DNA of 64,000 nt from an uncultured Schlesneria sp. (GTDB lineage: Bacteria; Planctomycetota; Planctomycetia; Planctomycetales; Planctomycetaceae), in contig CAIOKO010000102.1 of NCBI GenBank assembly GCA_903858935.1, forward strand, positions 1-64,000, written 5' to 3'. Shown here piece after piece: positions 17,021 to 59,591 of the stretch. Under the pieces are notes generated by a model, which worked only from the letters and a program-made list of their open reading frames with translations, was not told the origin of the DNA and searched no databases. How positions within the stretch are numbered: the stretch's first letter is position 1; each line of letters opens with the position of its first letter. A program made the translations under genes and the position numbers.

Positions 17021-18974
17021 CATCGATCAGATCGTGTAACCAGACATAACCGATCGGCTGGCGACCGCAATGAATGCGCGTAATCGCTGTCGTTCCTGCA
17101 TGCGGATTCGATAACTGGCTTGAATCGACCTCAACAGTGACCATAACGCTGATACCGATCTGATCGTCCACGTTTGTGGTTTCAGCAACGTTGCGAATCG
17201 TACCTCGATACGAACGGGAAGGATCTGAGGCGAGTAGAAAATCGACGTCGAGATTCGGCTTCAATCGCTTTTGAGCATCGCGGACGTGTCCAAAGTCTTT
17301 GTCCGCAATCCGCATTTCAATCACCCACGGACCCTGCGTGTCACCGACTGTCAGCAGCGATTGACCCCGCTCTACTGGTCGGGCGGAAAGTAACGTTGAG
17401 ACATCCCATGTCAGCACCTTGCCAGGGATCGGGCTACGTAAGGTTAACGCCGCCTGCTGTCGTTCAATCAAAGTTCGCTGCCGATTCAACGATTGTTGGC
17501 GTTCTTTTAATTCTTCTTCTTCTGAAGCCAGCAACCTGGCCCGGTTCGCCGCATCAGGGGTCGATCCGCCGGTCAGCCTGGCTGACAGTACCCCTTTCAA
17601 TCGTTCGCGAACGACGTCGAGCTCACCGACAATTCTGGGGAGTTCCAAGGCCAGTTGTGGATCATGTAAGACCACTAACGGCTGACCTTCGGTAACGTCA
17701 TCACCATGCTGAACGAGTAATTCTTGAATAATCCCGGAACTGCTCGCGAAAATCTCGCGGCGATGGTCTGGGACAAGTTCTGCTGGACCGGACACCGTGA
17801 ATTCCGCTGGCACGAATGTCAGAATTCCCGCGGCCGCAGATGCCGCTAAAAGCGCAAGCCGAAAACCCGGACGACGCAGCCAGGCAGGCAAACGACGCAA
17901 CCGTCGCATCGTGCTCAAGAACGGAATTCCGTCTCGTTCGATCGCCGCGAGAAGCAGCGGTTCACTACGCCGCGCCAAAACTTCTACTCGATGCTTCCAT
18001 GCGGAGAAATCGGCAACGTTCTGGAATTGCTCCACCGCGATCACAGCTCGATTTGTAAACGGTACCGCAGTTGTCGGAGTCGACGGAAGTGGAATAAGCC
18101 CTATGGCTTTGGCTCCGGTCAACCCGGCGTGCTCAGATAGTTCGACCCTGAGCGGAGTTTCGTCTGCATCTGCTGGCTCCAGCGCGTTGAACCACAAGGA
18201 CTGGTTTCCAACGGCGACGAGTTTCGCAAGTGTTTCCATCGAACGAACCGTATTTGATCGAGATTCAATCTGATCAACACCGGTCACCGCAAGCGTTTCA
18301 TAAGACGCGTTGTTTTGACGTAACAAAGTGATTCGATCGCATTCGGCGATCAGTCGTCCGTCATTGACAATCGTCGCTGTCAAACCCGACAACTCGGGCG
18401 ATTGCACCAGGCTTTGCGAAAACTGATCCCACCGCTGCCATTGAGATTGTGCTTGCCGCAACTGTCGTAATTCCGACTGTGACAGGTAATCGGCCGTGAT
18501 TTCGCAAATCGCTCGAAGAAAAGGAATAACGTCAGAGGTCTGAGCACCATTCGGGCCGGCGGGATGAACGGCGTCGAGGAAGCCGACTACTTGACCTGCA
18601 TGTATGATCGGACCGAGCGTGCGGGCCGTAAGACGGCTGTTTCCATTGTCACTGCGGGTGATCGTATGCGTTGAAATCTGTTGGGTCTTCGCAACTTCAG
18701 TCAGCCACGAAACCTGCTCGGAGTCAATCATCTCCGGTAAGTCGGCTGGCAATTGACGAACGACTTCCCATGATCCCTCGGTGGTTGGTCGCCAAAGTCG
18801 AGCCTGCTCGACGCCACCAGACTGTCGCAGGCCACTCAAGACCTCTGCGAAGAATCGCCCGGCCTCTACGTCGGTCCTCGCCAGTTCCGCTAATTGATCG
18901 ACGCAGTGCTCCATCTGCTGCCGAGAGGCAGGCATGGCCGAGCTAGACGAGGTAATAGGAGCGTTCTGTGACAT
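16995..18974 (-). CDS. GAF-like domain fused to HlyD-family membrane fusion protein
   Basis: 659 residues from ATG 18974 (an in-frame GTG at 19007 is possible; neither has a strong ribosome binding site). The N-terminal 340 residues contain two GAF-like stretches (QARLWRPTTEGSWEVV...GPIIHAGQVVGFLDAV; then LIAECDRITLLRQNNASYETL...AVIAVEQF). A membrane helix follows at about 380-400 (FRLALLAASAAAGILTFVP), then a HlyD/biotinyl-lipoyl adaptor: FASSSGIIQELLVQHGDDV, a coiled-coil hairpin (EEEELKERQQSLNRQRTL), and LRSPIPGKVLTWDVS. Adaptors of this type bridge an inner-membrane exporter to the outer membrane. No transporter or outer-membrane partner is adjacent, which is unusual. The GAF part would lie in the cytoplasm. 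Confidence 0.82.
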   Translation of the reverse strand: MSQNAPITSSSSAMPASRQQMEHCVDQLAELARTDVEAGRFFAEVLSGLRQSGGVEQARLWRPTTEGSWEVVRQLPADLPEMIDSEQVSWLTEVAKTQQISTHTITRSDNGNSRLTARTLGPIIHAGQVVGFLDAVHPAGPNGAQTSDVIPFLRAICEITADYLSQSELRQLRQAQSQWQRWDQFSQSLVQSPELSGLTATIVNDGRLIAECDRITLLRQNNASYETLAVTGVDQIESRSNTVRSMETLAKLVAVGNQSLWFNALEPADADETPLRVELSEHAGLTGAKAIGLIPLPSTPTTAVPFTNRAVIAVEQFQNVADFSAWKHRVEVLARRSEPLLLAAIERDGIPFLSTMRRLRRLPAWLRRPGFRLALLAASAAAGILTFVPAEFTVSGPAELVPDHRREIFASSSGIIQELLVQHGDDVTEGQPLVVLHDPQLALELPRIVGELDVVRERLKGVLSARLTGGSTPDAANRARLLASEEEELKERQQSLNRQRTLIERQQAALTLRSPIPGKVLTWDVSTLLSARPVERGQSLLTVGDTQGPWVIEMRIADKDFGHVRDAQKRLKPNLDVDFLLASDPSRSYRGTIRNVAETTNVDDQIGISVMVTVEVDSSQLSNPHAGTTAITRIHCGRQPIGYVWLHDLIDAIRTRLLF

Positions 18975-19051
18975 GCTGTTTATATAACTGTTTTGCGATG
19001 ATTTCACATCGGAAATCAGTGTATGGCAAGTTATCAGCGATGCGAATTTCG

Positions 19052-19074
19052 CATCAGGGCGTCATTCTTTACCC
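19052..19074 (+). repeat. 23-bp direct repeat, copy 1
   Basis: CATCAGGGCGTCATTCTTTA followed by CCC, identical to the copy at 20281-20303. Both copies are preceded by a GCGAATT string. It lies immediately before the tRNA-like fragment. Confidence 0.6.
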
Positions 19075-19096
19075 CAACAAACAGGTTGAGCGTCTT

Positions 19097-19140
19097 TTGG
19101 TAGCAATACCGTGCAGGTTCGATTCCTGTCATGGGTATCC
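19097..19140 (+). pseudogene. 3-prime fragment of a class II tRNA gene
   Basis: GGTA-GCAA-TACC (19099-19110) forms a short stem like the long variable arm of a class II tRNA. It is followed, with the correct 2-nt spacing, by a T arm (GCAGG-TTCGATT-CCTGT, 19113-19129) and a possible 3-prime acceptor strand CATGGGT plus A. No matching 5-prime acceptor strand, D arm or anticodon arm lies at the right distance upstream; ACCC at 19071 can pair with only four bases. It is therefore a truncated tRNA, or a tRNA-like stem-loop, rather than a working gene. Confidence 0.4.
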
Positions 19141-19151
19141 GATTACGAAAC

Positions 19152-19182
19152 GTCCTGAATCAACCCGCTTCAGGACTTTTTT
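19152..19182 (+). terminator. Rho-independent terminator after the tRNA fragment
   Basis: GTCCTGAA (19152-19159) pairs with TTCAGGAC (19169-19176) around a 9-nt loop and is followed by six T residues. It lies 12 nt past the tRNA-like fragment on the plus strand, as expected for the terminator of a once complete tRNA gene. Confidence 0.8.
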
Positions 19183-19279
19183 CGAAAGGAGTGTAAAAAT
19201 CGGTTAAACACATTAAGTCATTTTGACTTATTGGTTCCTGCCACCTTTTCTTCACGGGGTTGGAGTGGAGGCCACTTCC

Positions 19280-19363
19280 TCATTCGGGGTTCTCTGCCAG
19301 AAATCGCTCGATTTCACTTACTTCAACGGGAGACAACTGCCATGAGGCGGTATCGATCAATGG
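19280..19363 (-). pseudogene. C-terminal coding remnant, copy 1
   Basis: On the minus strand this reads PLIDTASWQLSPVEVSEIER then FLAENPE and a stop. It matches the fragment at 19934-20029 at most positions, including the stop, while sequence upstream does not match a protein. It looks like the tail end of a gene whose body has been lost. Parent family not recognised. Confidence 0.4.
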
Positions 19364-19561
19364 CTGAGTTGTCCTGGTTTTCTGGCTCCCACAATCGCAG
19401 CAGACGGCAGCCGAAACGTCTATGCGATGGCCACTTCTCCCGCCGACTTGCCGTGCTGACCGCCGATGCCGCGCAGCACTTCGGCCAGGCGCAAGTTCCG
19501 CGAGAACTACGGTTCTTGAAATTGGTCGTTTTTTCTCGACGCCAATCTCCGGCGGGGAGCC

Positions 19562-19846
19562 GGTTTTAAGCCGCAGCGCGGCGACCGAATAGAGCCTGGG
19601 GCAGCTTCTGCCCCAGGTTTCGTCAGATAAGAACAAACAAAAAGCCCCCTCGGGGCGGCCGAGATTGGATGTTCGCGCCAATCGTTGTGATTGATCCCGT
19701 TCCATCCTCGATTGGGAGGCGGCGAAATTGAGATGGAGATTCGACTCGGCCGCCCCGCTGGGGCTTTTTATTGGTTTTAGTTGTGTTTCATCCTGGGGCT
19801 GAAGCTCCCCAGGCTTTACTCGTCCGCCGCTCTGCGGCTTAAGACC
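19562..19846. repeat. Palindromic MITE-like element of about 285 bp
   Basis: Two nested inverted repeats. The outer arms (19562-19617 and 19792-19846) share CCTGGGG...CCCAGGCT and GCTGCGGCTTAA-type blocks in opposite orientation. The inner arms (about 19638-19663 and 19745-19770) pair AAAAAGCCCC(C)TCGGGGCGG with its complement. The left outer arm itself contains a perfect 10-bp hairpin (CCTGGGGCAG-CTT-CTGCCCCAGG, 19595-19617). The 80-nt centre encodes nothing recognisable. Confidence 0.6.
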
Positions 19847-19933
19847 GCACGCGACCACTCACCAACCACGGGAACAGAACGATGACGACAGAAACACACG
19901 AAGACCGCATTATCGGGGTTGGAAGCTAATTCC

Positions 19934-20029
19934 TCAGGCCGGGTTCTCCGCCAGAAATCGCTGGATTTCACTCGCTTCAGCGGGAGATAACTGCCATGAG
20001 GCGGCACCGATCGATTGGCTGAGTTGTGA
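19934..20029 (-). pseudogene. C-terminal coding remnant, copy 2
   Basis: Minus-strand reading gives SQLSQSIGAASWQLSPAEAS then EIQRFLAENPA and a stop, a close relative of the remnant at 19280-19363. The nucleotide match spans about 90 bp. Upstream of it the similarity stops. Confidence 0.4.
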
Positions 20030-20192
20030 ATTGGTTTTGGGATCTCCAGCCTCCAGGGACACCGCTTTTTTGTGGGTTCAGCGACGTGCTTTTGCTGGTT
20101 CCTTCCGACGCTAGCAGCGTCGGCCACGTGGCCGATGCTGCTAGCATTGGAGTCTTCCTGGTCGCAACGGCATCTCGTGGTCAACGGGCACT

Positions 20193-20222
20193 CACTGCGT
20201 GACCGAAGACGGTCATGCAGTG
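20193..20222. repeat. Dispersed hairpin repeat, copy A
   Basis: 13-bp stem (CACTGCGTGACCG / CGGTCATGCAGTG, one G-T pair) with loop AAGA. Same family as copies at 21938, 34903 and 57873. Confidence 0.7.
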
Positions 20223-20280
20223 GCACGCTTATCCAAGGGAATGACGATGCGATTGCAAAGTGTGAATCAAGCGAATTGCT

Positions 20281-20303
20281 CATCAGGGCGTCATTCTTTA
20301 CCC
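20281..20303 (+). repeat. 23-bp direct repeat, copy 2
   Basis: Identical to 19052-19074. The two copies bracket 1.2 kb that carries the tRNA fragment, the terminator, the palindromic element and both coding remnants. Confidence 0.6.
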
Positions 20304-21937: not shown

Positions 21938-21967
21938 CACTGCATGACCGTCTTCGGTCATGCAGTG
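21938..21967. repeat. Dispersed hairpin repeat, copy B
   Basis: Perfect 13-bp stem CACTGCATGACCG / CGGTCATGCAGTG with loop TCTT, the reverse complement of the AAGA loop in the other copies, so this copy is inverted. It forms one end of the larger repeat 21938-22267. Confidence 0.75.
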
Positions 21968-22267
21968 CCCTTTCACTGGCAGAACGAGAAGCCACTGCTT
22001 CTCCTAAGACTCCAGCGAGGCTTTGCCTCAGACCAAGGTAGCCATCATCGCTCCGCGTGATGAGCATTGTTCGAAAACCTATCAAATTCCAATCCGCATG
22101 GTCTCAAATCAGAAATTCAAATGGGAATATCCATCACGAGGCTGAGGCAACGTTTGAACCGTTTCCGACGCAGGCTCATCACTCGGAGCGATGATGGCTA
22201 CTTTGGAAGAAATTCTGAAACTTGACTCAATGAGTCAAGTTTCAGACCCGAAGAAGTCCGAAGCAGT
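21938..22267 (+). repeat. 330-bp structured intergenic repeat, copy 1
   Basis: This stretch matches the reverse complement of 57569-57902 along its whole length, with blocks such as GTAGCCATCATCGCT, GCGTGATGAGCATTG and CCTATCAAATTCCAA in the same order. Modules: hairpin B at one end, then an inverted repeat pair (22035-22069 and 22173-22207) around 100 nt, then a perfect 14-bp hairpin CTGAAACTTGACTC-AAT-GAGTCAAGTTTCAG (22215-22245). A 34-codon frame from ATG 22191 to 22295 covers the last module; its first 24 codons resemble the matching frame in copy 2. Confidence 0.75.
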
Positions 22268-22302
22268 GCCACAGAATCCTCATTCGGAAGTTTGACAAAG
22301 GA

Positions 22303-34624: not shown

Positions 34625-35018
34625 GGATGTCGTTCCTTCGCAGTTGGCAGGGATGTAATCGTAACCACAGTCGTGGGATCACACCTGATTTGGCATACTC
34701 TACAGTAGCTGTGTTGCTGCCGAAGTTGAAGTCTCTGCCAAGTCAGCGTCTGCCTCATATCGGAACGCCGAAGGTTTCGGACATCCGTCTGGCTGAATGG
34801 CAACGCCATGAAGGCTTTTTTCACTTGCCTTCATCTTGATATGTCACGACTTCCGAGTTATCGGAAAGGGAGTGGCACATCGACGTTCGTTGTGTCGCTC
34901 GGCACTGCTTGACAGAAGACCGGCAAGCAGTGGCACGGTTTTCAATGTCACCCGTGTTTTCTCGAAGAAAAGCCCTTCACGGCGCTGGCTCAAGAGGCAG
35001 CGAACCGAATCAGGCGAC
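34625..35018. other. Intergenic region with hairpin repeat
   Basis: 394 nt between the cytochrome gene start and the gspE stop. It contains the hairpin repeat copy C (34903-34932) and a second small inverted repeat (ATGAAGGC 34808-34815 with GCCTTCAT 34827-34834). No convincing gene. Confidence 0.5.
34903..34932. repeat. Dispersed hairpin repeat, copy C
   Basis: CACTGCTTG pairs with CAAGCAGTG; the inner part (ACA-GAAGA-CCGG) has two mismatches against the consensus stem. Flanked by GGCAC and TGGCACGG as in the other copies. Confidence 0.65.
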
Positions 35019-39956: not shown

Positions 39957-42900
39957 CTACTCAGGCTTGCTGAACTCGCCAGCGTCGTATTTCTTCCAGA
40001 ACTCGGCGGCGGAGAATTCGCCCCATCCTCGAGTGCCAAATCGTTCGATCGATTTCATGTTTCGAACGATATCAATCCCCTTCGTGATATTCTTTGGCGT
40101 AAAGTGCAATTGAGTGAGCTTCATTCCTTCGAGTGGCGTCACGTCGGACACAGGCGTTTCGCTGAAACCCACTATCGACAAAGACATCCGACTTTCAATT
40201 AGCGGCGAGAGGTCGGCCACTTTCGTTTGTTGGAAATAAATGAAATTCAACGGCATTCCCCTGAGTGGCGAAATGTCAGAGACACTTGTGGCCGCGAACG
40301 AGAAGAATGTTAAATTCATCCCTTTCAGTGGGGAAAGATCAGAGATCTTTGTTTGTGTGATGCCGAGGTTGGTCAAGCCCATCCCTTGAATTTGCGAAAG
40401 ATTCGTGATTTGTGTTCCGTCGCACATGAGTAACCAAAGCGGCAGATCTCGCACGGGAGACAGGTCGGAAACTTTTGTGTTCGAGACATACAGATTTCCG
40501 AGAGTCATCCCTTTGAGCGGCGACAAGTCCGACAATTGCCCTTTTTCCGGGCCGCTGCCATTGCAGTTCAAAGCAAACAAACCTGTGAGCGTCCTCACCG
40601 GCGAAATGTCTGTCACATTGTCGGTGACAAAACCGAGCCGTTTAACGACTCCGTTTTCGATGAACGGCGGCTTGTTTTCCCCGTCGGTCACCTTCCCATC
40701 GAACCCCGGATTGAGTTCCACCAACTTCTTGCTGACGGCCTCCACCTGCTTCTCGGCAGGCATGGCCTGCACGTCTTTCATCCATTGATCGAAGCCGGGC
40801 ATCTGGAAGGCGAGTGGTTTCGATGGCGTTGGCTTGCCAAATTCGCCAGCATCGTACTTCTTCCAAAACTCTTCTGGAGTGAATGGTTTTTCTGGGTTGA
40901 AGCCCCAACCAATCGTCTCCGTGGAAATCGTCTTAAGGGTTGCCATCTGCCGGATGCGGTCCATGCCCTTCATGATGTTTTTGGGAGTAAAAAAAATTCG
41001 TTCCAATTTCATTCCGTCGAGCGGGGTCAGGTCTGAAACCTTGTTTTCAGTACAGAGTAATTCCGTCAACGGCATCCCCTTGAGCGGGGACAGGTCGGCA
41101 ATGTTAGTGGCGCTGCAAGCAAGGGTGGCCAGGTTCATTCCCCGAAGCGGAGAAATGTCCGATACCGCTGTTGCAGTGAAATCCAGTAAACCTAACGGCA
41201 TTCCTTTGAGCGGCGACAGGTCGAATACCGGCGTGTTGACACAATTCAAACTAACGAGTTTCATGTCTTTCAGCGGTGACAAGTCGGACACTTTTGAACC
41301 CCAGCAATTGATAACCTCCAGTGGCATTCCTTTGAGTGGGGAAATGTTGGAGACTTGCGTAGCATTGAAGGTCAACGACTTTAAATTCATCCCTTTCAGT
41401 GGCGAAAGATCGGACAAATCTGCGTTATATCCGCAAGCGAACCCCGTCAGTCCCATCCCGTTTACTGGCGACAGGTCGCGCAAAGTTCCTTTGCCCTGCG
41501 AACTGCCTTGAACAAGCAACGCTGTTAGTCCTTTCAATGCCAACACCGGCGAGATATCGCTTACGTGATCCGTAGAAAAACCAATCTCAACTACGACGCC
41601 GTTTTCGATTTCGGGTTTCGCCCCCCAAATGCCTCCGATCTTCCCATCAAACCCCGGATTGAGCTCCATCAACTTCTTGGACACCGCGTCGACTTGCTTA
41701 TCGGCAGGCATTGCTTGCACGTCTTTGATCCATTGCTGGAATGCTGGGGATTCCCACGGCTTGCTGCCCGCGACGTCCGCTTTCTTCAGTGGTTTCAACT
41801 CTGCCGTGATCGCCTCGGTCTTTCCCGACTTGATCTCAAAGCTGTCGGTGAAGATTTCAAATCCGTCCTTTTGAACTTTCAGCCGATGCTTACCCTCAAC
41901 AACCGTGATCTTAATCGGCCCTTTGTCCCCCTTCCGGGTAATTTCAACGGTGTCCTTTTCATTCAGCACTTGGACATCAGCATCAGGCTCAGTCACTGTG
42001 ACAACCAATGTGCCGTCCCCAGACCTGGTCTTCATGTTGATGACCACAGCCGCCAGCAGGAACATCGCACCCAAAACAGCAGCCCCGATCAGAAGCCGTT
42101 TTTTTCGATCGTTAAGCAGCGAGTTAGTCCCTTTATTAACGGGTTTCTTCGGCAGCGCCTTCGTGCGAACGGGTTTCGCCGGTGCTGAGGGTAGGTTGTC
42201 GAGAAAGTTTGTGAAGTTCGCCGCCGTTGACGGTTCGACCGACTTGTTTGTAGGCGAGGCGTTTGATTTGACGACCGTTTCCCGTGTTGGGGACGCCAAC
42301 GTCATCGCGTGAGACGACACCGATTTGTCGTGTGCAAGAATCGGCTGTTCGGTATCCGAAGACTGTAAGGCAACTGTATTCAGTTGATCCTGACGACAGC
42401 CTTCCAGAGCGACAATCACTTCTGTCATCGACTGGTAACGATCTTCGATTTTCTTGGCGACCATCTTCTTGAAGACCGCTTCAAGCGGTTCCGGGACTTC
42501 GGCACGAGCAGAACGCAGCGACGGAATCGGCTGTTCCCGATGAGCCAACAACTTTTTCATGAGCGTATCGCCTTCGTAGGTTGGTGTGCCGGTCAGCAAG
42601 TAAAACAGCGAACAACCCAACGCATAGATATCAGTACGAGCATCAGCCGTCTTCGTGTCCAGGGCCTGTTCGGGGGACATATAATCGACGGTTCCCATCA
42701 CCGCGCCAGTGTTTGTCAGATCGGCCTGCGTCGTAGCCTCGCTATCACTACTCAGGCGAGCCAGCCCCATATCCAGAATCTTGACCGTTCCCTCTGCGTC
42801 CAAAAGGAGATTGGCCGGTTTAATATCCCGATGCACAATCCCCTGCTTGTGGGCGGCTTCCAGTCCTTTTGCAGCCTGCAGGATGTAGTTGACCGCCGTA

Positions 42901-43402
42901 TTAACCGGGAACCGACCATCCTTTTTGACCAGGGCTGACAGATCACTCCCGTCCACCAGTTCCATCACAAGGAAGTGAACGCCGTGGGCGCAGTCGGCAT
43001 CGTGAGCCGCAACAATATTGGGATGACTGATCTTCGCAGCCGCTTTCACTCCGGTTCAAACCGGGCGATCGCGTCTTTGTCTTTCGTCAAAGCGGCCGGC
43101 AGCACCTTGACCGCGACCAGGCGATCCATTCGCAGATGCCGAGCTTTATACACCTGCCCCATGCCACCCGCCCCGATCTTTTCCATCAGAACGTAGTTCC
43201 CCAGAACAAGCGATTTGCCCTTCCCTTTAGATATTTCTTCCGCCTGAAATTTCGTCAGTTTTTTCTTGCGGACAAGCTCCAAAGCCAACTCTTCGGCACT
43301 CTTGGGAGAAGCCCTCGGTGGTAAAAAGTCCTTCAGCGTTTCGCCAGCGACAATGCCGCTGTCCTCCAGCTGCTGAACAAACTTTTCAAGAGGAACGGCC
43401 AT
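39957..43402 (-). pseudogene. Ser/Thr kinase - TM - PEGA - LRR protein, split by a one-base deletion
   Basis: Two frames, 43402-43046 (118 codons, MAVPLEKFVQQLEDSG) and 43049-39957 (1030 codons), together reconstruct a protein parallel to the kinase at 43504-47328. The first frame has the helical extension, GAGGMGQVYKA loop and VAVKVL lysine, and ends ARFEPE. The intact paralogue reads GAACGGGAAGTG at this point and this copy reads GAACCGGAGTG, one A short. The second frame continues [45 protein letters not shown], then TM helix [19 protein letters not shown], a PEGA-like segment and two LRR-type blocks. The frames overlap by GTGA, so a coupled two-piece product cannot be excluded. Everything else is intact, so the lesion is recent or a sequencing error. 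Confidence 0.8.
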
Positions 43403-43484
43403 CGTCGGCAGCCTCGTTCAAAGGCAAGGACATGGAACAAAGCGGTTCTCACCGAAAGTCGTGGCATTTGCCAGAGAAATGGGT
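43403..43484 (-). repeat. Duplicated 82-bp leader, copy 1
   Basis: Upstream of the split kinase gene; matches 47329-47410 in front of the intact paralogue at most positions and the same length (CGTTCAAAGGCAAGGACATG is shared, as is GGCATTTGCCAGAGAAATGG). The gene duplication therefore included the 5-prime regulatory region. Confidence 0.75.
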
Positions 43485-43503: not shown

Positions 43504-46500
43504 CTACTTCTTCTTTTCGACTTGTTTCCAGAACTCCGCTGATGATTTGTTGTTGATCGTCTCCAGAGTCTTGATGGAGCGGAGGATTTCTGTGTCCCGT
43601 TCGGGCTTGAAGTCGAACAAAAGTGTCTTAAGCGGTAGTTCCTTGAGTATCGAGAAGTCAGAAACTTTCGTGCCGTGACATAACAATCCTTGCAGCGGCA
43701 TCCCTCTCAGCACTGAAATATCAGAAACTTTTGTCTCACCAAAAGACAAGTATTCGAGCTTCATGTTCTTCAGAGGCGTCAAATCACTTACTTGTGAATG
43801 TCCGAAGCTAATTCGAGTGATCTTCATTCCATCCAATGGAGAAAGGTCATAGACTTTTTTCGCATCGTCAAGGTAAAGCTCTTTTAAGGGCATCCCTTTC
43901 AGCGGCATCAAATGCGATACATTGGAACCCACACAAGAAAGTATAGTGAGCGGCATTTCGTGAAGCGGTGACAAATTAGAAACTTGAGTGAAATCACAAC
44001 GAAGCGAAGCCAGTTTCAGATCGTTTATCGGTGAGAGATCGGAAACCTTTCCCTTGCCGATTCCGCTTCCAGAACAGCTGAGATCTGTCAACCCGGTTAA
44101 AGCCCGCACCGGAGAAATATCTTTCACCTCGTTTGAAAGAAAGCCGATGCTTTTAACGACATCTTTTTCGATGACGGGAGTCCCAACCCCTCCAGCATCC
44201 GTCAACTTCCCATCGAATCCCGGATTGAGTTCCTTCAACTTCTTGCTGACCGCTTCCACCTGCTTCTCGGCAGGCATCGCTTGCACGTGTTTAATCCAAC
44301 TTTCGAAACCGGGAATCTGGAAGGCCAGTTTCGATGGCTTTTTGAACTCCCCAGCGTCGTATTTCTTCCAGAACTGATCGGGAGTGAACTTATTTTTATC
44401 ATCCCAACCAATTCCGATGCTCTTGAGGCTTTTCATCCGGCGGATGGCGTCTAACCCACTGAGGATCGTCGCGGGGGTGAAAATCAAGTTGTCTAACTCA
44501 ATTCCCCGCAGTGGCTCAACGTTCGTGACTTTGGTCCCAAGAATATTCAAGTCCTTCAGCGGCATCCCTTTGATCGGCGACAAATCGAACAGTGGAGTTT
44601 GCCCGAAGTCTGCGACTCTCAGCGTCATTCCGATCAACGGTGTTAAATTTGATACGTTGGTACCTGGGCATACAATCTCTCGTAAAGGCATTCCAGCTAA
44701 AGGAGCGATGTCTGAAAGTGAGAGATTCTGAGAGCATTCGAGACGAACGAGGTGCATCCCATTCAGCGGTGACAGGTCGAACAATCCGCCGTTTGCACGT
44801 GTGCCAATGTTGCTGCTGCCCCTGCAAACCAGAACCTGTAATCCCGTTAACGCCCTCAAAGGGGATAGATCGCTTAACCGATCCGTATAGACTTTCAGTT
44901 GCGTGACCACCCCATCGACAATCGACGGCGGACCTTGTGCGTAGGAATTTGCGAGCTTCCCATCAAATCCCGGATTCAACTCCATCAACTTTGTCGAGAC
45001 CGCCTTTAACTGCTTTTCGGCGGGCATCGCCTGCACGTCTTTCACCCATTGCTGGAAGGCGGGACTGTTCCATTTTTCGGAAGAACTGTTCTGGGGGGCT
45101 ATTTCTGCGATCCTGATATTTCGGAATCGCACCGCATTCTTCTGAGATTGCAGGCCGATCCGGCCTTTTGTTCGTTTCCATGCGGGATAGGCGTTGGGGC
45201 GGCTTGCCAATTCGCTTACGTCCAGCTTGAGTACTTCTGTCCCATTGACTGCGATCTTTAATTTGCGGGAGTGAAGGTTCATTTCCAGCGAATTCCACGC
45301 ATCCCCCGACTTTTCTTTGGCCTGTTGTTTCACGGGAATAAATCCCGCATCCACGGTGTTTGCCAGGTCCGACCAGACCCCTCCCGTGGCCCAGCCGGCA
45401 ATCTGACCGATCTGAACTTCCAGATGTTCTTTGTCTGCAGGTGAAGCGAGAATGGCAACGCCGCTGTTTGATCCTTCTTCTGTCTGATACTCCAATCTCA
45501 ACACAAATTCGGCGTATTCGTTATTTGAGAGCAGCCAACCGCCACCTTTTCCGGTTGCCGTTAAGACATGTTTAGAAGCGTCTACTTTCCAGTTACTTTG
45601 GTCGCCTTCTCGTATCCATCCTGTAAGATCTCGACCATTAAAAATGTCCACGAATTTGAGGTCGTCGAGTGGATTTGAACTGTCGACCGGCCCGGCCACC
45701 GCTGCGTTGACTTGCGGTATCAACTCTGCCCGGATCGACTTGGTCTTGCCAGATTTGATCTCAAAACTGTCCGTGAAAATTTCAAAGCCGTCCTTCTGAA
45801 TCCTCAGCCGATGCTTCCCCGGTACGACCGTAATCTTGATCGGCCCATCCTCTCCCTTGCGGGTCATCTCAACCGTGTTCTTTTCATTCAGCACTTCGAC
45901 GTCAGCATCGGGCTCAGTCACTGTCACAACCAAAGTGCCGTCCCCAGACCTGGTCTTCATATTGATGACCACACCCGCCAGCAGGAACAAAGCCCCCAGA
46001 ACCGCAGCACCGATCAGAAGCAGTTTTTTCTGGTCTTTGAGAAGCGAATTCGCCCCTTTTGTGACAGGCTTTTTCGGCTGCGTCTTCGTGCGGATGGGTT
46101 TTGTCGGTGTCGAGGGGAGATTGTCGAGAAAGTTTGCGAAGCTCGCCACCGGGGACGATTCGACCGACTTGCTTGTTGACGAGATGTTTGAGTTGACCAT
46201 CGTTTCCCGTGTCTGGGATGGTAGCGTCATCACTGGTGACGAACCCGATTTGTCTTGTACAAGAATCGGCTGGCCGGTCTCTGAAGACTGGATGGCAACC
46301 GTGTTCGCTTGACCACAACGACAGCCTTCCAGGGCGGCAATGACTTCCGTCATCGTCTGGTAACGATCTTCGACTTTCTTTGCGACCATCTTCTTGAAGA
46401 CTGCGTCAACGGGCTCCGCGACTTCGGCACGTGAAGAACGCAACGACGGTATCGGTTGTTCCCGATGGGCCAACAACTTCATCATAAGCGTGTTGCCTTG

Positions 46501-47328
46501 ATAGGTTGTCGTGCCGGTCAGCAGGTAAAAGAGCGAACAACCTAACGCACAGATATCTGTACGGGCATCAGCCGTCTTCGTGTCCATCGCCTGTTCGGGG
46601 GACATGTAATCGACAGTCCCCATCACGATACCGGTGCTTGTCAGGCCGGCTTGTGCTGCCGCGTCATTATCACTACTCAGGCGAGCCAGCCCCATATCCA
46701 GAATCTTCACTGTTCCCTTTTTGTCGAGAAGCAGGTTGGCTGGTTTAATGTCCCGGTGAACAAGCCCTTCGGCGTGAGCGGCTTCCAGTCCTTTGGCGGC
46801 TTGAAGGATGTAGTTCACCGCCGCCTCAACGGCTAAACATCCATCCTTGTCAACAAGGGCCGAAAGGTCACTCCCATCCACGAGTTCCATCACGAGAAAG
46901 TGGACACCATTGGCACAATCAGCATCATGAGCCGCGACAATATTGGGATGACTGATCTTCGCGGCCGCTTTCACTTCCCGTTCAAATCGGGCGATCGCGG
47001 CATTGTCTCTCGTCATGGCAGCTGGCAGCACCTTGACCGCGACGAGGCGATCCATTCGCAGATGCCGAGCTTTATACACCTGCCCCATGCCACCTGCCCC
47101 GATTTTTTCCATCAGGACGTAGTTGCCCAGAACTAGCGTTTTTCCCTTCCCTTTAGAAACAACCTCCGCCTGAAATCTCGTCAGTTTTTTCTTGCGGACC
47201 AGTTCCAGAGCCAGCTCTTCGGCACTCTGGGGAGATGCCCTGGGGGGCAAAAAGTCCTTCAACGTTTCGCCAGCGACGATGCCGCTTTCTTCAAGCTGCT
47301 GAATAAACTTTTCGAGAGGGAGGGCCAT
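43504..47328 (-). CDS. Ser/Thr protein kinase - TM - PEGA - DUF1080 - LRR protein
   Basis: 1274 residues. Order: helical N-terminal extension (1-66); kinase (about 70-340) with GAGGMGQVYKA, VAVKVL lysine, [13 protein letters not shown] catalytic loop, DMG in place of DFG, and MSPEQAMD; Ser/Thr-rich linker; membrane helix (about 436-456); PEGA-like domain ([19 protein letters not shown]); a DUF1080/concanavalin-like domain (about 550-740, FVDIFNGRDLTGWI; VLRLEYQTEEGSNSGVAI); then two modules each starting with [13 protein letters not shown] and followed by LRR-like repeats of about 22 residues (DLSPLNGMHL, DLSPIKGMPL). The kinase is cytoplasmic; the rest should lie outside the membrane and may sense a sugar-containing ligand. 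The paralogue at 39957-43402 lacks the DUF1080 domain. Confidence 0.92.
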   Translation of the reverse strand: MALPLEKFIQQLEESGIVAGETLKDFLPPRASPQSAEELALELVRKKKLTRFQAEVVSKGKGKTLVLGNYVLMEKIGAGGMGQVYKARHLRMDRLVAVKVLPAAMTRDNAAIARFEREVKAAAKISHPNIVAAHDADCANGVHFLVMELVDGSDLSALVDKDGCLAVEAAVNYILQAAKGLEAAHAEGLVHRDIKPANLLLDKKGTVKILDMGLARLSSDNDAAAQAGLTSTGIVMGTVDYMSPEQAMDTKTADARTDICALGCSLFYLLTGTTTYQGNTLMMKLLAHREQPIPSLRSSRAEVAEPVDAVFKKMVAKKVEDRYQTMTEVIAALEGCRCGQANTVAIQSSETGQPILVQDKSGSSPVMTLPSQTRETMVNSNISSTSKSVESSPVASFANFLDNLPSTPTKPIRTKTQPKKPVTKGANSLLKDQKKLLLIGAAVLGALFLLAGVVINMKTRSGDGTLVVTVTEPDADVEVLNEKNTVEMTRKGEDGPIKITVVPGKHRLRIQKDGFEIFTDSFEIKSGKTKSIRAELIPQVNAAVAGPVDSSNPLDDLKFVDIFNGRDLTGWIREGDQSNWKVDASKHVLTATGKGGGWLLSNNEYAEFVLRLEYQTEEGSNSGVAILASPADKEHLEVQIGQIAGWATGGVWSDLANTVDAGFIPVKQQAKEKSGDAWNSLEMNLHSRKLKIAVNGTEVLKLDVSELASRPNAYPAWKRTKGRIGLQSQKNAVRFRNIRIAEIAPQNSSSEKWNSPAFQQWVKDVQAMPAEKQLKAVSTKLMELNPGFDGKLANSYAQGPPSIVDGVVTQLKVYTDRLSDLSPLRALTGLQVLVCRGSSNIGTRANGGLFDLSPLNGMHLVRLECSQNLSLSDIAPLAGMPLREIVCPGTNVSNLTPLIGMTLRVADFGQTPLFDLSPIKGMPLKDLNILGTKVTNVEPLRGIELDNLIFTPATILSGLDAIRRMKSLKSIGIGWDDKNKFTPDQFWKKYDAGEFKKPSKLAFQIPGFESWIKHVQAMPAEKQVEAVSKKLKELNPGFDGKLTDAGGVGTPVIEKDVVKSIGFLSNEVKDISPVRALTGLTDLSCSGSGIGKGKVSDLSPINDLKLASLRCDFTQVSNLSPLHEMPLTILSCVGSNVSHLMPLKGMPLKELYLDDAKKVYDLSPLDGMKITRISFGHSQVSDLTPLKNMKLEYLSFGETKVSDISVLRGMPLQGLLCHGTKVSDFSILKELPLKTLLFDFKPERDTEILRSIKTLETINNKSSAEFWKQVEKKK

Positions 47329-47410
47329 CGTCGGCAGCTTCGTTCAAAGGCAAGGACATGGGATAAAACGATTCTCATCGAAAATCGGGGCATTTGCCAG
47401 AGAAATGGGT
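47329..47410 (-). repeat. Duplicated 82-bp leader, copy 2
   Basis: Upstream of the intact kinase gene; partner of 43403-43484. The shared block probably holds the promoter and leader of both kinase genes. Confidence 0.75.
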
Positions 47411-57432: not shown

Positions 57433-57632
57433 AGAACAGCCTCAAGAGCGTCACGTGCAGCCAAGGTGAGCCGATCAACAGGCCAAATTGTGGTCAGGTA
57501 AGCCTGTTGCGTCATGTGTGCGGCGTGCAACGCCAGGATTTTTCTTCGGGCTTCATTTTCATGTGACTCTGCTTCGGACTTCTTCGGGCCTGAAACTTGA
57601 CCCATTGAGCCAGTTTTCAGGATATCTTCCAA
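57372..57632 (-). CDS. Doubtful small protein starting inside the 330-bp repeat
   Basis: 86 codons from TTG 57632: MEDILKTGSMGQVSGPKKSE at the start, then HAAHMTQQAYLTTIWPVDRL. The first 24 residues resemble the frame 22191-22295 in the other repeat copy (LEEILKLDSMSQVSDPKKSE). That copy has ATG ATG where this one has ACG ATC, so this start is degraded, and the similarity may reflect a conserved DNA hairpin rather than a peptide. The last 61 nt overlap thiE. Could be a decayed gene. Confidence 0.25.
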   Translation of the reverse strand: MEDILKTGSMGQVSGPKKSEAESHENEARRKILALHAAHMTQQAYLTTIWPVDRLTLAARDALEAVLQRIPLNVSIWRVDSPGVGL

Positions 57633-57902
57633 GGTAGCGATCGTCGTTCCGCGTGATGAGCATGCGTCGGAAACGATTCAATCGTTGCCGACGCATCGGG
57701 ACAGATATTCCGTTTGAATTCCTGATTTGAGACCATGCGGCTTGGAATTTGATAGGTTCTAAAGCAATGCTCATCACGCTAAGCGATGATGGCTACTCTG
57801 GTCTCTGGCATAGCCTCACTGGAGTCCTCTTCGAAGCAGTGGCTCGACATCAGCGCTCGATTTGCAGTTCGGCACTGCTTGACGGAAGACCGTCAAGCAG
57901 TG
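57569..57902 (-). repeat. 330-bp structured intergenic repeat, copy 2
   Basis: Reverse-complement match to 21938-22267. Modules: an imperfect CTGAAA...TTTCAG hairpin (about 57590-57620), an inverted repeat pair (57631-57664 and 57767-57800), a strong hairpin inside the pair (57662-57696; ATGCGTCGG and CCGACGCAT plus AACGAT/ATCGTT around TCA), and the terminal hairpin copy D. Length and order of the parts are kept between the two copies. Confidence 0.75.
57873..57902. repeat. Dispersed hairpin repeat, copy D
   Basis: Perfect 13-bp stem CACTGCTTGACGG / CCGTCAAGCAGTG with loop AAGA. Best copy of the family and one end of the larger repeat 57569-57902. Confidence 0.8.
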
Positions 57903-57947
57903 GCATGATTTCCAGTGGAACCCATGATTGTGGGTTTCCCTCACAAT

Positions 57948-58661
57948 TCAGTTGTTGGAAGGGTTCACGAGGCTGCTTCGTTTTTGAATTGCAATCACGA
58001 GACGATTCGACGTAATGTCGCTCGAAGAAGAATTGACCCAGGGTGACGTGACGTACGGCACGATCCGCTGATCTTGCTGAAAGTCCATCCCTCGAAACGC
58101 CCAGCAATCCACGTCGGGTAATTCCGACACTAATTCGGTCAGTTCCGCTGGATTGGGAGCGACATATTTGCCGGCAAATCGTGCGATCGTTTTCTGGACG
58201 ATCGGATTATTCTTATTGGGGACAATCACGACGATTCGACCACCCGAACTGACGCGATCCCATAGTGATCGAAGAGTCTTCTGCCAGCCAACAAGCTGCA
58301 ACAATTCAATGCAGAACATCAAATCGAATTGCCCGAGTGATTTGCAGAACTCTTCGTTTTCCGGAGTTCCAATTTCCCAACGAACCTGGGGGTGGCGTTC
58401 CCGGCAGGCATTGATCGAATCGGCAATGATATCGACGCCGACGACTTCTTTTGCCTGAAGAGCAGCCAATGCCAGAGAAAGCTGCCCCCGTCCGCATCCA
58501 ACGTCGAGACAACGCTTTCCGCTGATGGGCCCAGCCGCTTCGAGAGCAATACCAAAGGTCTGGCCTTGAACGTGAGCGTTCGAATAATCAAGCCACGTGT
58601 TATCGGTCGCGTAAACTTTTTGATAGTAGTCTACCCATGACGCGTCCAGCGAATCGGCCAT
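57948..58661 (-). CDS. Class I SAM-dependent methyltransferase, paralogue 1
   Basis: 237 residues from ATG 58661 (GGAG 9 nt upstream). SAM-binding motif I is CLDVGCGRGQLSLALAAL, motif II acidic strand EVVGVDIIADS, and motif IV QFDLMFCIELLQLVGW. A C-terminal RGMDFQQDQRIVPYVTSPW block is shared with the next gene. The substrate is unknown. The gene lies 161 nt after its paralogue on the same strand (58823-59512), with roughly two thirds of residues shared by eye, so it arose by tandem duplication. Placed at the edge of the glycan block, so it may modify a sugar or lipid. Confidence 0.88.
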   Translation of the reverse strand: MADSLDASWVDYYQKVYATDNTWLDYSNAHVQGQTFGIALEAAGPISGKRCLDVGCGRGQLSLALAALQAKEVVGVDIIADSINACRERHPQVRWEIGTPENEEFCKSLGQFDLMFCIELLQLVGWQKTLRSLWDRVSSGGRIVVIVPNKNNPIVQKTIARFAGKYVAPNPAELTELVSELPDVDCWAFRGMDFQQDQRIVPYVTSPWVNSSSSDITSNRLVIAIQKRSSLVNPSNN

Positions 58662-58822
58662 CGATCGGACTCCATTGAAATGGTCTTGAGTCAATTTCGC
58701 GAACTGAAACAATTGACAGCAACTTTCGATTTAAAATCGTGAAAGCGTGTCAATACGTCTTACAATCGCTACAACCCTCAAATTCGACCAAATCGATGGC
58801 GATACTTTCGTGTTTTCGAGAT

Positions 58823-59512
58823 TTAAACCTTCTTCTGCAGGACGAATACCAGGCGATTGGACGCAAACCCGGAAATCATCTCGTTTGTCCAGGGTGAGGT
58901 CACGTACGGCAGAATTCGCTGGTCTTGCTGGAAGTCCATTCCACGATAGGCCCAGCACTCGAGGTCTGGAAGCGTTGCGGCAAATTCCAGAATTTCCGCA
59001 GGATTCAGCGGAATATACCTTCCTTCAAACCGGGCAATCGTCTTTTGAACAATCGCGTTATCCTTGTTCGGTACAATAGCGACAATCCGGCCCCCCGGAT
59101 TCAATTGACTCCACAAGATCTGAAGTGTCTTGCGCCAGTCGACATAATGCAGCATTTCGATGAGGAAAACGACGTCGAACTGACCGAGTGTCTGACAAAA
59201 TCCTTCGTTTTCGGGAGTACCGACTTCCCATCGAACTGAGGGATATCGTTCGCGGCAGGCATTAATCGATTCAGCCACGATATCGACGCCGACGACCTCA
59301 CTGGCCTGCAATCCGGCCAAGGCAAGTGACAGGTGACCGCGACCACAACCGAGGTCCAGACACCGCTTTCCATTGATCGGCCCGGCGGCCTCAATCGCTA
59401 CGCCAAAAGTCTGCCCCTGAACATGAGCGTTTGAATAATCCAGCCAGGGATTTCCCGACGCGAAGACTCGCTGATAGTACTCGGTCCAGGACTCTTGTTT
59501 CGGTTCTGACAT
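58823..59512 (-). CDS. Class I SAM-dependent methyltransferase, paralogue 2
   Basis: 229 residues starting MSEPKQESWTEYYQRVFASG. SAM-binding CLDLGCGRGHLSLALAGL, EVVGVDIVAES, QFDVVFLIEMLHYVDW and the shared C-terminal RGMDFQQDQRILPYVTSPW. Same fold and layout as paralogue 1. The shared WLDYSNAHVQGQTFG region before motif I may bind the acceptor. The gene lies 79 nt downstream of the nucleotide-sugar dehydrogenase stop and reads the same way, so cotranscription is possible. Confidence 0.88.
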   Translation of the reverse strand: MSEPKQESWTEYYQRVFASGNPWLDYSNAHVQGQTFGVAIEAAGPINGKRCLDLGCGRGHLSLALAGLQASEVVGVDIVAESINACRERYPSVRWEVGTPENEGFCQTLGQFDVVFLIEMLHYVDWRKTLQILWSQLNPGGRIVAIVPNKDNAIVQKTIARFEGRYIPLNPAEILEFAATLPDLECWAYRGMDFQQDQRILPYVTSPWTNEMISGFASNRLVFVLQKKV

Positions 59513-59591
59513 CGCTTGCGGACTCCGTTCATCGCAGTTGACGATCGCAATTGACGATCACCGTGAGATACGACTCGATTATCGCCGACGC

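Follow-up and report, generated by a model that had tools for sequence, protein, structure and literature searches.

The Repeat in the Window

The window analyzed here, the whole stretch of 64,000 nucleotides from contig CAIOKO010000102.1 of an uncultured Schlesneria sp. (GenBank assembly GCA_903858935.1), carries two copies of a 330-bp unit, both located between convergent ORFs. Two inverted copies had been described in an earlier reading of the sequence alone, and BLASTN within the window bore this out: positions 21938-22267 on the plus strand and 57902-57569 on the minus strand are reverse complements with 80.5% identity over 339 columns (E 1e-86). The three parts that this sequence-only reading had assigned to the unit were also found, namely a short hairpin (21938-21967), an inverted-repeat unit (within 22033-22206), and an adjacent hairpin (22214-22246). 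Folded as single-stranded DNA, positions 21938-22290 reached -88.8 kcal/mol (z -11.1), and 0 of 100 dinucleotide shuffles folded as well. The boundaries of an inner module fall inside the 330-bp unit, at about 22013 and 22258. Judged from its sequence, the unit is a composite nest of three layers, not one element. The outside layer is a doublet of short palindromes of type A or type B. The second is a module of about 245 bp, termed M, that lies in the loop of the doublet's second palindrome, 3' of a GAAGACTC-like sequence. The third, inside M, consists of two inverted GTAG-tagged REP sequences that form a REPIN. The 34-nt arms previously noted in the inverted-repeat unit are real, but are now read as the REP sequences of this REPIN. 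The features listed below are supported in part by comparison of the window's own genome (G000, a draft of 7.93 Mb in 280 contigs) with relatives, of which G001, G005, and probably G004 belong to the same genus (Schlesneria, a member of the Planctomycetota).

20193..20226, minus strand: solo hp1 (outer palindrome) that matches the type-A pattern with 0 mismatches
21938..21967, plus strand: outer palindrome 1 (hp1, type A), copy 1; from its sequence and the genome-wide type-A hp1 sites
21992..22012, plus strand: outer palindrome 2 (hp2), left arm, with the target TAAGACTC at its end; from the uninterrupted hp2 at the orthologous G001 locus and the target table of 78 copies
22013..22258, plus strand: module M copy 1 (246 bp; a shared C leaves the ends uncertain by 1 base); absent from the G001 locus
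22038..22065, plus strand: left REPIN arm of M copy 1, a REP (GTAG and bulged hairpin); from stem covariation
22174..22201, minus strand: right REPIN arm of M copy 1, an inverted REP
22215..22245, plus strand: right-hand hairpin HP of M copy 1
22249..22258, plus strand: right end of M copy 1 (..GAAGAAGTC); the 10-nt right-end type of 63 of 78 copies
22260..22272, plus strand: right arm of hp2, copy 1; from its sequence and the uninterrupted hp2 in G001
34829..34971, minus strand: degenerate outer doublet without M (hp1 at 34903-34936)
57577..57821, minus strand: module M copy 2; type-B doublet without M there in G004 and G005
57590..57620, minus strand: hairpin HP, copy 2
57634..57661, plus strand: REP arm, copy 2
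57769..57796, minus strand: REP arm, copy 2
57873..57906, minus strand: hp1, type A, copy 2

Other repeats were also observed in the window. A repeat cluster at 18961-20303 includes inverted repeats (19561-19601/19807-19847 and 19632-19663/19745-19776) and direct repeats (19266/19920 and 19023/20252), and some of this cluster is similar to repeats adjoining a Y1_Tnp gene (contig C180 of the draft, L067). Positions 41791-43484 and 45716-47410 form a direct duplication of about 1.7 kb that is 84% identical. Adjoining copy 2 are tandem related ORFs (58038-58676 and 58889-59529; 71% DNA identity), which from reading them may encode methyltransferases.

Composition and Distribution of Module M

A filter for both REP arms, HP, and the left flank among fetched loci yielded 78 copies of M (58 in G000 and 20 in relatives). 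From left to right, M comprises its left end, which includes a small hairpin, then the REPIN, the right-hand hairpin HP, and the right end GAAGAAGTC. It carries no gene, and its length is 245 bp in 48 of the 74 measurable copies. The two inverted, GTAG-tagged REPs of the REPIN are separated by a spacer of about 107 nt, and the starts of the two arms are 135 bp apart in most fetched copies (exceptions, 120 to 137). In each REP, GTAG precedes a hairpin that contains a single bulged base. In the REP stem, 809 of 904 stem cells were standard pairs across 113 distinct variants, which were gathered at up to 8 mismatches to the consensus, a selection that favors pairing. Pair 7/24 was changed on both sides in 18 of these variants, and with the pairing partners slid by -1, +1, and +2 as a control, 145, 61, and 526 cells, respectively, were paired. 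In HP, pairs 2 to 14 were standard in 78-97% of the 78 copies, with few changes on both sides. The marks of a REPIN are therefore present in M: an inverted REP pair, GTAG on the 5' side at the base of an imperfect hairpin, many mainly extragenic copies, and, elsewhere in the genome, the gene of a REP-associated tyrosine transposase (RAYT) with a matching REP (see below). With a simple ORF picker applied to the 45 G000 copies that have at least 1.5 kb on both sides, 6 copies fell inside an ORF and 39 were extragenic, the flanking ORFs being convergent at 20, tandem at 12, and divergent at 7.

The genome-wide search that had been proposed for the unit was run and revealed a large dispersed family, with 133 match pieces in G000 at E <= 0.001 (40 of 250 first-look candidates scored). 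The 28-mer of the REP was found at 223 sites in G000 at up to 3 mismatches, the left end of M at 68 sites, and the right end at 31 sites, with 0 control sites in each case. Matches were present in 14 of the 40 genomes searched, the own genome included, and in 2 of 24 genera. Relative G008 harbors standalone REPINs of 58-bp spacing and, separately, M copies with a variant REPIN that lie in a different palindrome, again 3' of a GAAGACTCC-like sequence. In a contig scan, the exact REP 28-mer was found at at least 79 loci (L140-L218), and the 29 examined that carry non-Schlesneria labels belong to Planctomycetes and Verrucomicrobia. At 19 of these 29 loci, an inverted REP partner lies within 400 bp, with 58 to 157 bp separating the two starts and none of the pairs at the 135-bp spacing of G000. 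In at least one case, L141, an M-like left end (GAAGATTCCAGCGAGGC...) precedes the REP, 5' of 2397 (Planctomycetaceae MAG AM_0621), indicating that M is not confined to the Schlesneria genomes compared.

In the outer doublet, hp1 is followed by a spacer that varies and then by hp2, the loop of which contains GAAGACTCC; CACTGC marks type A and CACGGT type B. Type-A hp1 has 75 sites in G000 at up to 3 mismatches (control, 0). Of the 48 such sites in fetched loci, a sample biased towards filled copies, 12 are empty, 26 are filled with M, and the rest are neither by the patterns used. A third outer inverted-repeat layer accompanies a minority of these 48 sites (6 on the left, 7 on the right, and both in 4). 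Outer doublets are also present in the one-contig genome G002, where four loci were read and the REP 28-mer is absent. As a further observation, outer-type palindromes lie directly upstream of IS200-like TnpA genes at L070 (C258) and L071 (C35). Over 40 nt, the gapless identity of the interior of M is 0.763 among 27 copies in type-A doublets and 0.778 among 22 in type-B doublets, with 29 of the 78 copies left out because they fit neither outer type. The gapless identity of the outer spacers beside M in these copies is 0.294 for type A (shuffled, 0.252) and 0.387 for type B (shuffled, 0.255). Alike interiors next to unlike spacers suggest that copies of M sit in different doublets.

Insertion Sites With and Without M

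M is often found in the loops of palindromic repeats, and also at sites without outer arms (L035, L065, and L030). The nine bases before M read exactly GAAGACTCC in 27 of the 78 copies, and position -4 of this left target is C in 54. In 63 copies the right end is the 10-nt sequence proper to M (GAAGAAGTCC, with 2 mismatches at most), in 11 it is a target-like 9-nt sequence, and in 4 it is neither. Since a true duplication would make both sides alike, the predominance of copies with differing sides counts against duplication; the 11 copies with a target-like right end are what duplication would give, and count against a duplication-free reading. Five head-to-tail junctions of M were read (L014, L028, L045, L110, and L111). 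Four of these join GAAGAAGTCC to AG, with one change at L111, and the exception, L014, joins GAAGACTCC to AG.

Comparison of orthologous loci offers a more direct view of the ends of the inserted unit. At site 1 (window position 21938), the flanks are joined in G005 with neither doublet nor M, G001 carries a doublet without M in which hp1 is degenerate and hp2 is uninterrupted (...CTTCTCCGAAGACATCCGAAGCAGTGGCAC...), and the doublet of G000 is interrupted by M; the G004 contig ends there. At site 2 (window position 57569), G004 and G005 encode a type-B doublet without M while G000 has type A with M, and the G001 contigs break inside tandem type-A doublets (on C147, L251, two doublets are visible at the contig end, both without M). 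As compared, site 2 is an example of a locus from which M is absent, rather than an empty copy of the same doublet. Locus L035, which lacks outer arms, reads ...CCTTAGAGTC[M]TGTTCCACCGGC... in G000 and ...CCGTGAAGACTGTTCCATCGGC... without M in G001, and outside M the two genomes are equal in length. The ten bases to the left of M differ at 4 places between them, such that the exact cut at L035 is a choice. In G005, 80 bp lie between the matching flanks of L035, too few for M. At L039, the G001 region is strongly diverged from G000.

At the two readable sites, site 1 and L035, M thus appears to have inserted without duplicated bases; target duplications, which had been named as a check on mobility, were looked for and none was seen at the readable sites. 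The earlier proposal of a non-autonomous mobile element holds for the inner module of about 245 bp, for which there are copies, conserved boundaries, and sites without it, but not for the 330-bp unit, the boundaries of which were wrong. Further copies and conserved boundaries, on which that proposal had been staked, are both present. M is best read, from sites with and without it in related genomes, as a REPIN-centered, non-autonomous mobile element.

A RAYT Gene Among the Repeats

The possibility that G000 has an extended M enclosing a gene between two intact ends was examined and rejected, since the distances between left end, REP, inverted REP, and HP are nearly constant; this check covered 63 of the 68 left-end sites and 31 of the 31 right-end sites. 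Exceptions to the constant spacing led to a 219-aa reading frame, P0001, between element copies on contig C272, where the left end of M is cut short. P0001 matched the NCBIfam model REP_Tyr_transpos (NF047646) with an E of 6.6e-14 and 52 bits, below the cut-off of 80, and the Pfam model Y1_Tnp (PF01797) with 20.3 bits, below the cut-off of 23. It also matched the structure of Escherichia coli TnpAREP (4er8) with an E of 0.0049 (phmmer). The HUH motif of P0001 is NHVH and its Y---NP signature is YIADNP. Aligned to 4er8, P0001 has W, Q, and R at the positions that contact GTAG (residue numbers counted by hand). Both the Y---NP signature and the GTAG-contacting residues W94, Q95, and R104 of E. 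coli TnpAREP are described in PMC6006769. With its scores under the curated cut-offs, P0001 is a divergent relative.

The P0001 locus (L110/L122) is flanked by the REP of M, with the nearer upstream REP being degenerate (6 mismatches). At the orthologous locus on contig C27 of G001 (L123, L178, and L197), the REPs on both sides are whole (0-2 mismatches) and the orthologue of P0001 has HVQ instead of HVH. The RAYT segment between the REPINs is in opposite orientation on C272 and C27. At each of 8 P0001-type loci with flanks read (L122 to L127, L130, and L168), a GTAG-type palindrome lies beside the gene, and different RAYTs are adjoined by palindromes with different stems; the remaining P0001-type loci were scanned for a few fixed patterns only. 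One of the 8, L168, is from a MAG labelled Prosthecobacter debontii (Verrucomicrobiota) and encodes a 54%-identical RAYT flanked by the exact REP. Another, L130 on contig C153 of G001, encodes a further RAYT; the gene lies between two REPINs that have a different type of stem, and is preceded by hp1 and a left end and followed by a diverged HP. The same locus in G000 (L092, C14) carries M with one REPIN and no gene, as opposed to two REPINs and a RAYT. Further Y1_Tnp genes in G000 lie in or beside arrays of other repeats (L067, L072, L077, and L078) and are possibly REPtrons.

Across the relatives, the best P0001 homologs are 59% identical in G005 (179 REP sites), 57% identical in G008 (29 REP sites), and 42% identical in G004 (57 REP sites), each with a different REP beside it and, in G004, with a stop inside. 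No P0001 relative was found in G014 (10 REP sites) or G003 (3 REP sites), and G002 encodes relatives of P0001 but has no REP sites. In these genomes, the presence of a RAYT is a poor guide to REP counts, a mismatch for which loss in the past, incomplete draft assemblies, or the action of another RAYT on the REP of M are possible explanations.

Candidate Mechanism and Alternatives

Hairpin ends, a fixed target, and the lack of a seen duplication are the anatomy of single-strand transposition of the IS200/IS605 type. Elements of the IS608 type have hairpin ends, a fixed tetranucleotide target, and no target duplication. We consider it probable, though well short of assured, that the M of about 245 bp was inserted in the loop of hp2 by such a transposition, and that the enzyme most likely to be responsible is a RAYT. 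Under this mechanism, the insertion point of M would lie immediately 3' of a GAAGACTC-like sequence, frequently within the loops of palindromes, with no detectable target duplication. The most likely enzyme would be a RAYT (an HUH, one-tyrosine transposase), the first candidate being the one flanked by the REP of M. The linkage of RAYT and REP, the target motif, the anatomy and copy number of M, and the loci in relatives that lack it are direct observations, while cutting of M by a RAYT and a single-stranded DNA substrate are inferences. Points that speak against the proposed mechanism are the scores of P0001 under the curated cut-offs, the HVQ of the G001 orthologue, the poor agreement of RAYT presence with REP counts, the 11 copies with a target-like right end, the other doublet type at site 2, and the choice of cut at L035.

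It is unlikely, but conceivable, that M is a real, site-specific, and duplication-free element that is moved by another recombinase (IS110/IS1111-type, IS91-type, or a single-domain IS200 TnpA), with the REPIN as a passenger. Head-to-tail copies and a missing target duplication, as seen in M, fit several recombinase types. The IS200-like TnpA genes that have outer-type palindromes immediately upstream (C35 and C258) would also suit such an account, as would the constancy of M at the C14/C153 locus while the REPIN differs between species, and the abundance of REPs in G005 without an orthologue of P0001. However, the gene found between REPINs in M-like contexts is a RAYT (L110/L123 and L130), and the pairing of a GTAG REP with a RAYT recurs in the Verrucomicrobia-labelled MAG.

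Spread of the whole 330-bp composite, outer palindromes included, as one MITE-like unit is highly improbable. The end-to-end match of the window copies, the many copies that align over the full 330 bp, and the type-B outer spacers that are more alike than shuffled ones would be expected of such a unit, but the site 1 doublet without M in G001, the 12 empty sites among 48 of type-A hp1, the outer doublets without REP in G002, the two outer types around one M, and the different palindrome around M in G008 would not. The unit as one element was rejected on the basis of site 1 in G001, the palindromes of G008, and the unlike spacers. We attach equally little weight to spread of M by homologous recombination or gene conversion between palindromic repeats. 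While mixed contexts (e.g., L022, with a type-B left flank and another right flank), the differing REPIN at the orthologous C14/C153 locus, and the RAYT segment inverted between species are all compatible with recombination, conversion needs homologous flanks, yet M also occurs at sites without outer arms (L035, L065, and L030), and L035 is empty in G001. Least credible of all is that M is a structured RNA gene family (a regulatory RNA or 3'-end element) copied passively: the strong fold and the 20 of 45 copies between convergent ORFs fit this idea, but the structured RNA family that had been suggested gained no support from Rfam, with 0 matches at gathering thresholds across the whole 64,000-nt window, and the fixed target of M, its head-to-tail copies, and the loci that lack it are features of mobile elements.

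It had also been suggested that the inverted copies could mediate inversion of the DNA between them. The neighbors of site 1 are adjacent in G001 and G005 and those of site 2 are adjacent in G004 and G005, indicating that no inversion broke at the window copies in those comparisons, which cover the neighbors of the two sites (in G005, the two sites are on different contigs). The opposite orientation of the RAYT segment in two species indicates that the idea does hold for closely spaced copies, although no breakpoint was found at the two window sites.

Relation to Known Systems

M resembles REPINs, BIMEs, and GTAG-tagged REP dimers in that it has a pair of bulged, GTAG-tagged hairpins in inverted orientation, is present in many and mostly extragenic copies, and is accompanied in the genome by a RAYT gene with a matching REP on its flanks (PMC3116915; PMC3733652). 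It differs in that its spacer is about 107 nt, whereas most known REP partners are 20-100 bp apart (PMC3733652), and in that its REPIN is part of a longer module that has ends, a right hairpin, and a target of its own. Planctomycetes and Verrucomicrobia are reported to be among the groups with GTAG REP families, and three species have been described in which REP elements lie within palindromes (PMC3733652). The elements concerned are the GTAG-15 of A. variabilis, GTAG-23 of T. roseum, and CGTC-1 of H. neapolitanus, in which REPs are consistently embedded in other palindromes, as they are here; REP-free target palindromes numbered none in A. variabilis and H. neapolitanus and hundreds in T. roseum (PMC3733652). 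Palindromes without an insertion are likewise present here, including one at an orthologous locus; what is inserted here is a larger unit, M. As in a REPtron, a RAYT lies between REPs at the same locus on C272 of G000 and C27 of G001, but this locus adjoins an outer palindrome like that of gene-less copies, and the orientation of the gene differs between species (PMC6006769; PMC3733652). M shares with IS200/IS605 elements of the IS608 type the hairpins near both ends, the fixed target, and the lack of a seen duplication, but it is gene-less, has no tnpA of its own, and has a target longer than a tetranucleotide (PMC6006769). Unlike a classical MITE of a DDE transposon, M has no target-site duplication at site 1 and L035. 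REPINs were defined, and three excision reads were reported, in an earlier study (PMC3116915), and RAYTs are described as vertically inherited and as replicating REPINs at very low rates (PMC8049555). No description of M was found among the papers listed from the literature searched, which excludes preprints and many subscription papers.

Implications

REP dissemination has been called poorly understood (PMC8266576). We tentatively suggest, at somewhat less than even confidence, that RAYTs may be able to move REPINs within larger modules that have their own left end, right hairpin, and strict target in the loops of unrelated palindromes. If true, the palindromes of a genome would be landing pads for one another, and orthologous sites with and without M would record the insertion of a REPIN directly, with exact ends, in the style of IS200/IS605. 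Since many copies of M lie at contig ends of the draft genome, such nesting also matters for the assembly of planctomycete genomes. With its unit, target, and ends readable from these sites, M provides a concrete substrate for testing against a particular RAYT.
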